Assembly (NCBI RefSeq): GCF_000517625.1
Contig: NZ_CP007055.1
Coordinates: forward strand, 310,001 to 374,000
DNA from: Halostagnicola larsenii XH-48
Lineage (GTDB): Archaea; Halobacteriota; Halobacteria; Halobacteriales; Natrialbaceae
Reading direction: 5' to 3'
Length of the DNA: 64,000 nt
Shown here: one piece after another, positions 440 through 22,229 of the stretch
Layout of the letters: every line of letters begins with the position of its first letter
Position numbering within the stretch: the first letter of the stretch is position 1
Notes under the pieces: model-generated
Told to the model about the DNA's origin: nothing
The model's input: the letters and a program-made list of their open reading frames with translations, nothing else
Database searches by the model: none
Made by a program: the position numbers and the translations under genes

Positions 440-1789
440 TTACGGGTTTGACCGGTCAGCGGCGCTTCCGGAAGAAATCGTCGTCGACTCGCCCATCGCC
501 GTTGGCGTCTCGTTCTCGTAGTCGTCCCAATTTTCGGCCATCTCGCTATCGGTGAGCAGACAGTCCTCGAGTCGCGACTCGAGGGCGACCTGATCCAGGT
601 TCCGGCCGATGAGCGCGAGTCGAACCTCGCGGTCGCCCCACTCCTCGTCCCACGGCATGTCTGGCTGGCCGCGGCGATAGGCTTCCTGTCGTTGCTCGGA
701 GAAGCTGGCGATCCACCGCCCGGTGACCTCGAGGGTCGTCTCGGTTCCCGCGTAGCTCATCGTGATCGCCGCCCGTTCGCGGCCCGCGATCCAGCAGAGC
801 CCCTTCGCGCGAACGAGCCCGTCCGGAACGTCCTCGAGGAACTCGCGGAGTCGCCGGGGGTGAAACGGACGGGTTCGCGCGAACGTTGTGACGTCGATCC
901 CATATCGCTCGGGCGGGTGAGTGTGGTCGTCATCGCCGTGGTCGTGGCTCTCGCCGTCGCCGTGATCGTGGTTTTCACCGTCACCGCTCTCGCCGTCACC
1001 GTGATTGCGGTGCTCGTCGCCGCTTTCGCCATCACCGCTGTCGCCGTGATCGTGCAGACTGTCACCGGCCTCGTGGTCCGCGCTCGCCTCGACGGCTCGT
1101 TTCCAGCCCGCGGACTCGCGTGCGGCCTCGAGGTCGAATCGCTCGCTCTCGAGCAGTTCGTCGGGACGCACCGAGCCGTACTCCGTGGTCACGATGTCGG
1201 CTCGCGGCTGGAGCGTCTCGAGGACGGCGACGACGCGGTCGCGTTCGGCCTCGCTAACCAGGTCGCACTTGTTGAGGACGAGCAGGTCACAGAACTCGAC
1301 CTGCTCGAGCAGGAGGTCGGCGATCGGACGGGAGCCGCTCTCGTCGGGACCCTGTCGGACCGGCTTTTCGTCCCCGTCGACGAACGTGTCGTAAAACAGG
1401 CGAGCGTCGGCGACGGTGACGACCGCGTCCAGATCGTAGGGGCCGCCAGCGGGCCCGCGGACGAACTGGCGGGCGATCGGTTCCGGCTCGCCGACGCCGG
1501 AGGCTTCGACGACGAGGGAGTCGAAGTCGTGTTCCTTCCAGAGTTGGATCACCGAGCGCGAGAGTTCGCCGCCGAGGCTACAACAGATACAGCCGTTCTC
1601 GAGGGCGACGACCTCGTCGCCCGTCTCGAGGTCGGTGCGCGCTTCGACGAGGTCGGCGTCGACGTTAACCTCGCCGACGTCGTTGACGAGGACGGCGATA
1701 TCGCGGTCGTCTTCCTCGAGCAACTGCGAGAGCAGCGTCGTCTTGCCTGCGCCGAGCCCGCCACAGAGGATGGTAACCGGAACGGACAT
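440..1789 (-). CDS. CobW/ZNG1-type GTPase metallochaperone with His-rich insert (paralogue 2)
   Basis: 449-aa COG0523 G3E GTPase. Visible are Walker A GGLGAGKTT (residues 10-18), the metal-binding GCICC motif (66-70), NKCD guanine specificity (173-176), a His/Asp/Gly-rich insert (about 239-291, with repeated HDHGD and HGDGESGD units) and a CobW C-terminal domain. The family hydrolyses GTP to hand metals, typically zinc or cobalt, to client proteins; the His-rich loop probably buffers metal. Its ATG follows directly on the TAA of the upstream paralogue (1790-1792), so the two are almost certainly co-transcribed. Which metal and client are served cannot be read from the sequence. Confidence 0.93.
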   Translation of the reverse strand: MSVPVTILCGGLGAGKTTLLSQLLEEDDRDIAVLVNDVGEVNVDADLVEARTDLETGDEVVALENGCICCSLGGELSRSVIQLWKEHDFDSLVVEASGVGEPEPIARQFVRGPAGGPYDLDAVVTVADARLFYDTFVDGDEKPVRQGPDESGSRPIADLLLEQVEFCDLLVLNKCDLVSEAERDRVVAVLETLQPRADIVTTEYGSVRPDELLESERFDLEAARESAGWKRAVEASADHEAGDSLHDHGDSGDGESGDEHRNHGDGESGDGENHDHGDGESHDHGDDDHTHPPERYGIDVTTFARTRPFHPRRLREFLEDVPDGLVRAKGLCWIAGRERAAITMSYAGTETTLEVTGRWIASFSEQRQEAYRRGQPDMPWDEEWGDREVRLALIGRNLDQVALESRLEDCLLTDSEMAENWDDYENETPTAMGESTTISSGSAADRSNP

Positions 1790-3004
1790 TTACTGATCCG
1801 CGAGCGCGAGTTCACGTCGTTCTTCCGGTTCGAACGGATCGGGGTACCCTCCCCAGTCGTCGTTCGTGTACTCCTCCTCCGTGAGCAAGCAGTCATCGAG
1901 TTGGTCGACGAGCGACTCGGCGTCGAACTCGCGGCCGATGAGGACGAGCCGCGTCATACGGTCGCCCCACTCGTCGTCCCAGTCCTCCTCGAGACCGGGT
2001 CTGGCGGCGAAGTACTGCTCGCGTTCTGCCTCGGGGAGCGTCGCGAGCCACTGGCCCGACGGGCCGGCGCGGACGGAGGTTCCCGCTTTGTCGATCCCCA
2101 TCGCAACGTCTTCGCGGCCTGCACTCCAGAAGAATCCCTTCGCGCGGATGATCCGGTCTGGGAGTTCGGGTAAGAGCGCCGCGATCCGTTCGGGGTGGAA
2201 CGGTCGATCCCGCTCGTAGGAAACGGAGGTGACGCCGTGTTCTTCCTGCGGGTCGTGGTGGTGTTCGTGCTGGAGTTCGCGCTTCCAGCCCGCCGAGTTC
2301 TGTGCGGCCTCGAAGTCGAACCGTCCGGTGTCGAGGATGGCCGCCGCCTCGACGTTCCCGAACTTGGTCCGACGGATCTTGGCTCGAGGCTGCAGCGTCT
2401 CGAGGACGGCTTCGATCTCCTCGAGTGCGTCGTCGGGAACGAGGTCGCACTTGTTGAGGACGAGCACGTCGCAGAACTCGATCTGGTCGAGCAACACTTC
2501 TTCGGGAACCCGTCCCGATTCGGCGTCGATGTCACCTTCGCCCCCTGAAAGCGCCGTTCCGGAGTCGAACGACTCCCAGAAGCTGTGGGCGTTGACGACG
2601 GTGACCATCGTATCGAGCGCGTAGGTGTCGGTTGGATCGAACGTCGCATCTTCGAAGCCCATCGAGAATGTCTGGGCGACGGGGATCGGTTCGGAAATGC
2701 CGGAGGATTCGACGAGCAAATAATCGAACTCGCGCTGCTCGGCCAGCCGTCCGATCTCCGCTAACATGTCGCCGCGAAGGCGACAGCAGATACAGCCGTT
2801 CGAGAGTTCCACTACCTCCTCGTCGCCGCCCAGATCCGATCGCTGGGTGACGGCTTCGGCGTCGACGTTCACCGCTCCCATATCGTTGACCACGACCGCC
2901 GCTTCCATCCCGTGATCCGCGGAGAGAACGCGGTTGAGAACGGTCGTCTTGCCCGCGCCGAGACTGCCGCTCAGAACTGTCACCGGTATTCGTTCGTCGT
3001 TCAT
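1790..3004 (-). CDS. CobW/ZNG1-type GTPase metallochaperone (paralogue 1)
   Basis: 404-aa COG0523 GTPase with Walker A SGSLGAGKTT (12-21), GCICC (70-74), NKCD, a short His-rich patch HEHHHDPQEEHG (about 246-257) and a CobW C-terminal domain. It is clearly related to the next gene (440-1789) but lacks the long His-rich insert, so the two may serve different clients or metal states. First gene of a two-gene unit, behind an AT-rich upstream region with inverted repeats. Tandem COG0523 genes are often zinc-starvation genes; here that is inference. Confidence 0.93.
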   Translation of the reverse strand: MNDERIPVTVLSGSLGAGKTTVLNRVLSADHGMEAAVVVNDMGAVNVDAEAVTQRSDLGGDEEVVELSNGCICCRLRGDMLAEIGRLAEQREFDYLLVESSGISEPIPVAQTFSMGFEDATFDPTDTYALDTMVTVVNAHSFWESFDSGTALSGGEGDIDAESGRVPEEVLLDQIEFCDVLVLNKCDLVPDDALEEIEAVLETLQPRAKIRRTKFGNVEAAAILDTGRFDFEAAQNSAGWKRELQHEHHHDPQEEHGVTSVSYERDRPFHPERIAALLPELPDRIIRAKGFFWSAGREDVAMGIDKAGTSVRAGPSGQWLATLPEAEREQYFAARPGLEEDWDDEWGDRMTRLVLIGREFDAESLVDQLDDCLLTEEEYTNDDWGGYPDPFEPEERRELALADQ

Positions 3005-3033
3005 CGTACGCGCTAGTAGGATTTCTTAACCAC

Positions 3034-3105
3034 TTAATACTAATCTCTAGTTTCCCTAGAACTCATAATAATAACTAATATTAAAATTAGAGATATTTTT
3101 AATAT
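3034..3105 (-). promoter_or_regulatory. AT-rich promoter/operator region of the CobW pair
   Basis: On the minus strand TATTAAG (3034-3040) sits about 30 bases before the ATG at 3004 and can act as TATA box. Just upstream is an inverted repeat TCTAG-TTTCC-CTAGA (3046-3060), and beyond it ATATTAAAA (3078-3086) faces TTTTAATAT (3097-3105), a perfect 9-base inverted repeat. The stretch is far more AT-rich than its surroundings. A metal-responsive repressor site is plausible but unproven. Confidence 0.5.
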
Positions 3106-3327
3106 CGTCCGGTCATTTCGATGCGTTACGATCCAATCGAATGACTCGACGAGTTTGTCGTGGATCGCTGTCATCGCCGGAAGCGACCCAAACGCTATTC
3201 GAGCGAACCGGCCGCGGGGTAGACGTTTCGATGCGCAACGATCGAACCGCGTGGGCAATGCTTTTCCTCCAGACCGTTGGTCAAGGACGTATGGACGATA
3301 GCCTCGATTCTGTCGGGTGGTTCGCCA

Positions 3328-3843
3328 ATGACTAACGGAACGTCGTCGGAGTCGACGCCCGACGAGGCCGATCCGTGGATCGAGTTGCTCGAGGACGCGG
3401 CGGCAATCGAGGGCGAGTTTCAGGATGCGGGTTGGGAGACGCTGTTCGTCGAACCGGAGGCCGTCACGCCGGTCGAGACGGACGACCGAGTCGGTCTTCG
3501 AGCGGTCGTCTCACAGGACCAGTACACCGCCGTCGAGGACCTCGTTGGCCGGGACGACATCGCCTTCGCCGCGGTCGACGTCTACTACCAGACCGAAGGA
3601 CAGACGACCTTCATCCTCGCCGTCGAACGCGACGACGAAACCGAACACGCCGTCTTGCTCCCGCTGTACTACGATCTACCGGACGCATCCTCGGTGCTCG
3701 AGACCGCACTCGCCGACGGGCACCTCTTCGTCTACCTCGATCCGGCGGACGAACCGGCGGAAACGGACGAAGACCGCTGGGTCGTGTTTTCCCACGACGA
3801 GCCGTCGCTGTTCGTCGATTCAGTCGCCGATCTCGAGGAGTAG
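3328..3843 (+). CDS. Haloarchaeal conserved acidic protein, function unknown
   Basis: 171 aa when started at the ATG at 3328, which has a GGGTGG Shine-Dalgarno-like stretch at 3315-3320; an ATG 51 bases upstream in the same frame is less likely. The protein is soluble and very acidic, without signal peptide or membrane helix. The middle part reads as an alpha/beta fold (RAVVSQDQYTAVEDLV..AAVDVYYQ) and the end has VVFSHDEPSLFVDSV. I recognise no catalytic motif. It converges on the 3874-4620 gene with a 30-base gap. Confidence 0.75.
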   Translation: MTNGTSSESTPDEADPWIELLEDAAAIEGEFQDAGWETLFVEPEAVTPVETDDRVGLRAVVSQDQYTAVEDLVGRDDIAFAAVDVYYQTEGQTTFILAVERDDETEHAVLLPLYYDLPDASSVLETALADGHLFVYLDPADEPAETDEDRWVVFSHDEPSLFVDSVADLEE

Positions 3844-21440: not shown

Positions 21441-21779
21441 ATGAGCGACGACGAGATTACGCGCCCGAGCGACGTCGGGTCGGGCGACGCGCCACCGGTC
21501 GAGGAAAAGCCCTACAAGATCGTCTTCGAGGCCAACAAGTGCTTCGGCGCGGGCAAGTGCGCCGAAGTCAGCGCCAACTGGGAGATGTCCATCGCGTCGG
21601 GCATGGCCAAGCCCAACGAGTACTTCTTCGGCGAGGAGGACCTCGAGCACAACGTCCGCGCGGCGGAAATCTGCCCGGCGAAGAAAGACGACGGCTGCAT
21701 CCACGTCGTGGATCGGCGGACCGACGAGGAGATCGCGCCCGATCCCCACGGTGACGGTACGCTAAGCGTCGACTGGTAA
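21441..21779 (+). CDS. Single-cluster ferredoxin ([3Fe-4S]/[4Fe-4S] type)
   Basis: 112 aa from the ATG at 21441. The cluster pattern is C34-x5-C40 ... C78-P with an extra C86, as in P450-type one-cluster ferredoxins (CxGxGxC ... CP). The missing Cys in the usual CxxCxxC stretch suggests a [3Fe-4S] cluster, or a fourth ligand supplied by C86. It is a soluble electron carrier. It stands alone just before tRNA-Leu, so no partner enzyme is indicated. Confidence 0.82.
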   Translation: MSDDEITRPSDVGSGDAPPVEEKPYKIVFEANKCFGAGKCAEVSANWEMSIASGMAKPNEYFFGEEDLEHNVRAAEICPAKKDDGCIHVVDRRTDEEIAPDPHGDGTLSVDW

Positions 21780-21855
21780 CAGCGGGTAATTTTCTTCTCG
21801 AGTGCACACCGAAACGCACATCCCAAGGCGGTGGCAACGGGCAAGTGCGTTTTGA

Positions 21856-21939
21856 GCGAGGGTAGCCAAGCAGGCCAACGGCGGTGGGCTTAAGACCCGC
21901 TCCCGTAGGGGTCCTTGGGTTCAAATCCCAACCCTCGCA
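21856..21939 (+). tRNA. tRNA-Leu (anticodon UAA)
   Basis: 84-nt class II tRNA: acceptor GCGAGGG pairs perfectly with CCCTCGC, discriminator A at 21939. The anticodon loop CTTAAGA lies between GGG and CCC, giving anticodon TAA. A long variable arm and a T-arm GGGTTCAAATCCC follow. No CCA is encoded and there is no intron. Confidence 0.96.
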
Positions 21940-22059
21940 TACCGACTCGAACGACTGTGAGAGTCGTGTATGCGAGACGCGGGATTTGAAGTAGACGAGT
22001 CGCAGCGCCCGAGCAAAGCGAGGGCGACCGTCTCGGCGTAGTTCAAATCCCAACCCTCG
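21919..22059. repeat. tRNA-Leu 3'-end direct repeat (att-like) with inverted third copy
   Basis: GTTCAAATCCCAACCCTCG occurs at 21919-21937, inside the tRNA, and again exactly at 22041-22059. Between them an inverted, partly decayed copy is present (TATGCGA 21969-21975 and GGGATTTGAA 21981-21990). Only about 100 bases separate the direct repeats, too little for an element. This looks like the scar of an excised or collapsed tRNA-integrating element. Confidence 0.7.
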
Positions 22060-22229
22060 AGTTGCCGTCGCTCGATCGAATCAGCCGATTCAGAAGGGAT
22101 CTCATAGAACGCATCTCGAGGATTGCTTTTCCTCCATACGTCGGTGAGTCTGCCGATATGACGGTCTGCGTATGCACCGATCAAGAAAGTGAGGGCAAGA
22201 CTTGTAACGACGTACTAATATGACAAAAT

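Follow-up and report, generated by a model that had tools for sequence, protein, structure and literature searches.

The hairpin unit that follows the tRNA-Leu(UAA) gene of Halostagnicola larsenii XH-48 is probably, if not securely, a member of a non-coding, non-autonomous, hairpin-forming DNA repeat family of Halobacteria, which inserts at T-arm-like sequences and duplicates the right half of its target. Members of the family are dispersed, and they stand 3' of tRNA genes in a fixed orientation. The units repeat the tail of the very target they adjoin, both directly (X) and inverted (X'), and the number of units at the same tRNA varies between close relatives.

The stretch of DNA analyzed here (the window) comprises 64,000 nt of a haloarchaeal chromosome (G000:C1:310001-374000, G000 being the genome of H. 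larsenii XH-48). At tRNA-Leu(UAA) it holds a single unit, a 122-bp stretch, and the parts of the locus are as follows:

21856-21939, + strand: tRNA-Leu(UAA) gene, the host target (ARAGORN; RF00005 at G000:C1:331856-331939)
21919-21937, + strand: X, the tRNA tail from the T-loop into the acceptor 3' strand, GTTCAAATCCCAACCCTCG (repeat comparison)
21938-21972, + strand: hairpin A, with left arm 21938-21948, apex GAACGACTGTGA at 21949-21960 and right arm 21961-21972 (folds)
21973-21990, - strand: X', the inverted tRNA-tail copy, CGAG-ACGC-GGGATTTGAA, its middle four letters mismatched, which pairs with the downstream X (repeats, folds)
21991-22040, + strand: hairpin b core, GTAGACGAGTCGCAGCGCCCGAGCAAAGCGAGGGCGACCGTCTCGGCGTA, one among several core types (BLAST likeness to Glu, Met and Gly loci; folds)
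22041-22059, + strand: second X, an exact copy of the tRNA tail and the right end of the unit (repeat comparison)

The exact 19-base direct repeat of the tRNA-Leu(UAA) 3' end, described in the earlier note, was confirmed at 21919-21937 and 22041-22059 (122 nt start to start), and an exact match of 19 nt within about 200 nt is far beyond chance expectation. Two inverted pairs were also found, one at 21920-21942 and 21968-21990 (23 nt, 83% complementary) and a further one at 21981-21993 and 22039-22051. The 123-nt segment 21938-22060 folds into two neighbouring hairpins on the tRNA-sense strand (z of -5.1 as DNA and -5.5 as RNA, with 0/200 shuffles equally stable), and the outer stem of hairpin b is formed by X' paired with the second X. 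Because of these folds, the three tail copies at tRNA-Leu(UAA) are the arms of one structure, in the order X, A, X', b core, X. The inverted partial copy reported in the earlier note is present between the direct repeats, but it is the middle arm of two adjacent hairpins and not a stray third copy.

Two further observations concern the surroundings of the unit. Past the last X, window positions 22058-22090 (CGAGTTGCCGTCGCTCGATCGAA) look like the decayed start of another hairpin A, and a similar sequence is found in the congeners G001 and G002. The mechanically called ORFs 21568-22053 and 21921-22184, both on the - strand, cross the tRNA and the hairpin unit and may get annotated as spurious proteins.

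When the 122-bp stretch was compared with the whole G000 genome by BLAST, matches were found beside tRNA-Glu, tRNA-Met and tRNA-Gly genes. Tail copies were scored wherever the last 19 nt of a tRNA recurred with at most four mismatches within 400 nt downstream, and the tails of tRNAs for other amino acids served as the control; this test misses diverged units. An own-tail copy was detected in 22/42 tRNA genes of G000 (43 Rfam matches; 45 ARAGORN predictions), compared with 21/1646 swapped-tail pairings. Among the tRNA genes listed, the corresponding figures were 12/37 genes versus 8/1270 swapped pairings in the congener G001, and 21/39 versus 40/1414 in G347, a genome from another family (43 Rfam tRNA matches in each of these two genomes). 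Six copies of the perfect palindrome GATTTGAA-N20-50-TTCAAATC exist in the entire 4.1-Mb genome of G000, each of them no more than 200 nt 3' of a tRNA gene by Rfam tRNA coordinates.

The commonest core, the strict pattern GAATCAGGGAG-N5-35-CGACCGTGGTTC, was present exactly in 220 of 391 haloarchaeal genomes, representing 68 of 86 genera, while a reversed-pattern control gave no match in the 391 genomes of the class. A slightly looser core was found in 33/53 Halobacteria versus 0/241 genomes of other classes in the phylum. Genomes without the strict core may still hold other core types, as the window copy does.

Among the matches listed (L073-L212), 135 of 149 strict core matches had a same-strand tRNA gene within 1500 nt upstream; the other 14 consisted of eight at a locus edge, four at displaced tRNA tails and two at a protein gene. 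The distance from tRNA to core ranged from 35 to 296 nt, with a median of 51, in the 95 tRNA-linked cases among 103 matches listed (L073-L172), and the matches listed in that set cover tRNAs of 14 amino acids. The neighbour's own tail was copied with at most two mismatches in 19 in 95 of the 135 cases among the matches listed, and with 3 to 9 in the other 40. Forty out of 40 further loci, taken down the strict-core list and not at random, were also 3' of a tRNA (36 new loci, with four repeating earlier ones). The 120 stretches L093-L212 came from the listed matches; L073-L172 were used for the distance, strand, A-arm and core analyses, and the remaining 40 for placement. Six more stretches, L316-L321, were picked for arrays or odd spacing: a tRNA is present in L317, L318, L319 and L320 and absent from L316, and L321 ends at the contig start.

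The motif GGTTCRA occurs 48 times in the 64-kb window, once inside a tRNA. Since the motif is common and yet the units stand at tRNA genes, selection or a tRNA-linked mechanism must add to motif targeting. Tolerance may account for part of the tRNA bias, in that a duplication reaching as far as the end of the tRNA leaves the gene whole.

Some loci behind tRNA genes showed additional features. Copied tails often have two extra nucleotides in the T-loop (GGTTCACAATCC, TTCAACATCC, TTCAATATCC; loci L073, L085, L091, L105, L119, L134, L135, L145, L150, L151, L259 and L266), as though to stop the copy from passing for a T-loop; eight of these 12 loci are at Thr tRNAs. In L318 (G318:C2:1324800-1328900), two near-identical units stand 2.9 kb apart behind tRNA-Thr(CGT), at locus positions 440-3530, and the segment between them encodes a DUF6895 protein (PF21836); recombination between units may have captured this segment.

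The tRNA-Leu locus was compared across five genomes of the genus (G000-G004). It had been proposed in the earlier note that some relatives might hold a full element between the repeats; none of the five did, and all carried the short arrangement. The opposite prospect, that relatives would be identical at tRNA-Leu(UAA), held for the short arrangement, which is common to 5/5, but not for the number of units: G002 has three, and G000, G001, G003 and G004 have one each. Among the G002 units, it is the farthest one that gives the best alignment to the window unit in core and right end, and the sequence beyond is also common to both. In G003 the tRNA-Leu T-loop reads TTCGAAT, as opposed to TTCAAAT in the others, and the same A to G change is found in the unit's X and X'; thus X and X' follow the changes of the tRNA.

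Copy-number differences were also observed between G000 and G001 at genes whose flanks match on both sides, with one and two units, respectively, at Ser(CGA), one and two at Ile(GAT), and two and one at Lys(CTT). At the Asp tRNA the core type differs between the two genomes. In 37 gene comparisons, a tail copy was detected in both genomes in 11, in G000 only in nine, in G001 only in one and in neither in 16, many of the one-sided cases being diverged copies or having unmatched downstream flanks. A clean presence or absence with both flanks conserved was not seen at any of these 37 tRNA genes, only differences in copy number. The Val(CAC) unit was considered as one lost in G001, and this was rejected because the gene has different flanks in the two genomes.

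Units were also found away from tRNA genes. In Natronorubrum (L096; G117, L286, has this array too), a protein gene that ends in the codons GGTTCGAACCGGTC, a mimic of a T-arm, is followed by three units, and X and X' of the array copy the end of the protein gene. Three units were present at the same protein gene in another genus (G066, L289), with that gene's own version of the end. Homologue loci of the protein gene numbered 30, of which 28 were parsed; units were present at two of the 28 and no unit at 26. The arrays in two genera may represent two insertions, or one old insertion lost elsewhere. Between two protein genes of G174 (L316), at GGTTCGATCCG, a 50-bp unit is repeated eleven times. 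This array was absent at the same spot in 9/9 parsed congeners (nine of 11 parsed; another short palindrome stands close by in L363 and L372), and in G281 the target GGGTGGTTCGATCCG is present without any array. Arrays without a tRNA are rare and are located at T-loop-like GGTTCGANCC sites, and relatives have the empty site; the non-tRNA arrays and the empty sites together indicate that units can reach a site by insertion. The data show that the common denominator of unit sites is a T-arm-like sequence. A lone match in L295, with two mismatches and without hairpins, was taken as chance.

The same anatomy, including the inverted copy, recurs at other tRNAs and at non-tRNA sites, which does not bear out the earlier suggestion that the inverted copy at tRNA-Leu(UAA) records a second event in the opposite orientation. 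The reading as a single scar plus a second, inverted event was rejected because the inverted copy occupies the same place in units at other tRNAs.

We infer that a DNA-level insertion would recognize a T-arm-like dyad around GGTTCRA and duplicate the right half of the target (11-21 nt). The tRNA genes would survive such an insertion because the duplicated stretch reaches the tRNA 3' end. A and b would work as folded single-stranded DNA of the tRNA-sense strand, and arrays would grow by recombination between X copies. More speculatively, X' might be made by fold-back copying of the target, and the putative enzyme might be a tyrosine recombinase or a single-strand (HUH-type) nuclease. If a dumbbell-shaped DNA, with X as its stem and a and b as its loops, were copied all the way around, the product would have the order X-a-X'-b-X. 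Insertion at non-tRNA sites is easier to reconcile with a DNA element than with an RNA trailer. Several points count against a DNA element: the preference for tRNA genes exceeds what motif targeting by itself would predict, G000 and G001 differ at matched tRNA genes in copy number and not in clean presence or absence, no gene was carried by any unit seen, the host-specific X' arises, to our knowledge, from no standard transposition, and folding of the sense-strand RNA is as convincing as folding of the DNA. A bolder form of the DNA-element reading, which is possible although we would not expect it, is that the unit is a self-propagating, cargo-free hairpin DNA of a new kind, whose site is the universal T-arm of tRNA genes, which gains direct and inverted copies of its target and persists class-wide by duplicating tails and not breaking them.

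It is unlikely, yet worth serious consideration, that the unit is instead a functional RNA, namely the 3' trailer of the tRNA transcript, in which X' pairs with the tRNA tail or the downstream X and the hairpins switch or protect maturation or yield small RNAs. Such a trailer is consistent with the fixed tRNA-sense orientation and with the better folding of the sense strand than of the antisense strand (A, 61 vs 16; variable part of b, 73 vs 5) in 78 distinct units among the matches listed, drawn from 95 with a tRNA after duplicates and long A regions were left out. As a sign of RNA this strand preference is weakened, being partly due to GA/GA and GNA motifs that may also suit DNA. Strong covariation speaks for a functional RNA too, as it does for the DNA repeat. 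In the 28 distinct units with a 34-nt core, from 101 usable among the matches listed, 12 pairs of the aligned 23-pair helix were changed on both sides, and the covariation was 0.290 versus 0.132 when shuffled (0/500) and no more than 0.095 when slid. Since the search pattern selected for them, the core letters do not vary in this alignment.

Other properties of the same hairpins argue against a functional RNA. The outer, acceptor part of X' is often degenerate, with 8 to 10 of the 28 units among the matches listed unpaired in the outermost four columns, and the A arms have little G.U preference (48 G.U versus 41 A.C mismatches among the matches listed). A trailer likewise explains poorly why the end of a protein gene and an intergenic site show the same anatomy, and why unit numbers change between congeners. 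About half of the tRNA genes have no tail copy by a test that misses diverged units, and only tRNA (RF00005) reached the Rfam gathering score, with no curated family outside tRNA doing so.

Across the same 28 units among the matches listed, the variable stem had 105 Watson-Crick and 2 U.G pairs in 112 cells. Hairpin-A arms among the matches listed formed 5.9 of 8 pairs with their own partner versus 4.2 of 8 with others, a comparison that favours the own partner as the best of several placements. Of the apical loops among the matches listed, 62/96 were three-base loops, often GNA, and the apex pattern GAACGACTGTGA was seen in 71 distinct cases in 101 units elsewhere among the matches listed, some of which may be chance placements. 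Hairpin loops of d(GNA) are stable in DNA. The low wobble and the GNA loops are a hint of folded DNA, not proof. Two further ideas were considered from the sequence and dropped: a kink-turn reading of the tandem GA motif, as the 3-nt bulge is absent, and tRNA-primed reverse transcription, as there is no CCA between tail and hairpin.

We consider it very unlikely that the units are remnants of tandem att sites, left by a tyrosine integrase that used the T-loop-to-3' end as attB and whose larger elements were lost by excision. X does run from the T-loop to the 3' end, a region that is described as used by integrases (PMC8371274), and four matches without a tRNA (L128, L155, L181 and L189) are tails displaced outside their tRNA, partial in L155, L181 and L189, with an integrase gene adjoining in L155. 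At that locus, only a 13-nt partial tail stands at the junction beside the PF00589 integrase gene, and the unit is left aside, intact, outside the junction; a probable integrated element can thus be distinguished from the unit, which counts against att remnants. The 13-nt tail was assigned, by its letters, to a putative tRNA-Arg(CCG) lying outside the locus; a tail of this kind occurs among those compared in the tail-copy test. Against att remnants also stand the 0/5 genus genomes with an element at tRNA-Leu(UAA), and the single conserved core at tRNAs of 14 amino acids (among the matches listed), which is ill-suited to independent elements. No exact match to the type-1 core was found in viral contigs by an exact-pattern scan, and one 48-nt type-1 core query gave nothing in plasmids and one chance partial match only in phages; the core type of the window differs from type 1. 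A virus or plasmid origin has no support from these type-1 core searches of viral contigs, plasmids and phages. Of the integrase scar proposed in the earlier note, what remains is the duplicated tail, best explained by a target-duplicating, insertion-type event; the scar of a larger element is not supported.

Several observations concern integrases and displaced tails in their own right. The 13-letter partial tails of L155, L181 and L189 (CCCGTCGGGTCCG, CCCATCGTGCCCG and CCCTCCACCGGCT) begin at the same T-stem place, and this common start looks like a shared junction of tRNA-targeting integrases. In L128, at 1502-2962, the segment between tRNA-Val(CAC) and the displaced unit encodes an ORC-CDC6-like ATPase (PF24389) and is perhaps an integrated element. 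There are 11 PF00589 integrase places in G000. Two integrase genes are repeated there with an offset of 22,283 nt (G000:C1:902245-902730 / 924528-925013 and 908085-908459 / 930368-930742); the doubled genes stand just ahead of tRNA-Ala(GGC) at 931133, which suggests tandem duplication of an integrated element.

As improbable as att remnants is an origin without a dedicated enzyme, in which quasi-palindrome template switching during replication makes and homogenizes X, X' and the arms of the hairpins, and slippage in tandem accounts for everything else. Fold-back copying would be expected to give the layout X-a-X'-b-X, most changes in the variable stem are from Watson-Crick to Watson-Crick (28 units, among the matches listed), and X and X' change along with the tRNA. 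Against such an origin, a core of 23 fixed letters (GAATCAGGGAG...CGACCGTGGTTC) is common to 68 genera and, among the matches listed, to tRNAs of 14 amino acids, which calls for a source that is templated or under selection; this core is also present at non-tRNA sites.

The DNA repeat family may be compared with known systems. The nearest pattern known to us is the rtT (rttR) repeat of Escherichia coli tyrTV, where a 19-nt tRNA-Tyr tail recurs downstream with a 178-nt period (checked on NC_000913). Like rtT, haloarchaeal units form tandem repeats, each with the 3' part of the adjacent tRNA, the window having a single unit; rtT is one locus, examined by its tail period only, whereas in haloarchaea about half of a genome's tRNA genes share the hairpin design. 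Integron attC sites also occur in tandem arrays. Gene cassettes were not seen with the haloarchaeal units, whose ends, in contrast to attC, match the neighbouring tRNA and not fixed core sites, and we know of no integrase partner for them. The attC sites are folded single-strand hairpins whose unpaired bases matter (PMC8266576). REP and BIME sequences, with the IS200/IS605-related TnpA-REP, are short imperfect palindromes with a conserved bulge or mismatch and single-strand processing, and are proposed to be non-autonomous elements (PMC8266576). The haloarchaeal units resemble them as dispersed short imperfect palindromes on a defined strand and differ in copying the target's sequence in both orientations. 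As for the conserved GTAG foot of REP, the letters GTAG occur in the window copy at 21991-21994, inside the core, and at 22038-22041, but such a foot stands at only 4/42 tRNA genes of G000 and in none of the 28 type-1 cores among the matches listed.

For archaeal tRNA-targeting integrative elements, the T stem loop is described as a dyad among the regions that integrases use (PMC8371274). The window unit is likewise flanked by direct repeats of the tRNA 3' part (19 nt exact), but the units are about 50-180 bp long and without an integrase, contain conserved hairpins and not cargo, and share one core across the tRNAs of many amino acids. An archaeal palindrome, CGTTA(N)9TAACG, lies 3' of about half of the tRNA genes of one archaeon and, according to its authors, in no other genome; unlike for the haloarchaeal units, tRNA tail copies are not mentioned in the passages that describe it (PMC5217627). 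As folded single strands, REP and attC come closest in kind, and the archaeal integrative elements come closest in target. No system known to us has both a common hairpin core and copies of the tail of each host, direct as well as inverted. A published description of the haloarchaeal units was not found in the open-licence literature, and an earlier report may exist elsewhere.

If the units were functional RNAs, about half of the tRNA genes of these archaea would have an unexplored structured trailer. If the reading as a DNA repeat family is true, many short duplications behind haloarchaeal tRNA genes would be class-wide repeat units and not prophage scars, and the annotation of attachment sites and tRNA-linked islands would change. 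It would raise the question of which haloarchaeal enzyme reads T-arm dyads or folded strands, and would provide a natural system, testable in laboratory haloarchaea, that copies a target in both orientations and keeps the copies matched to one another.
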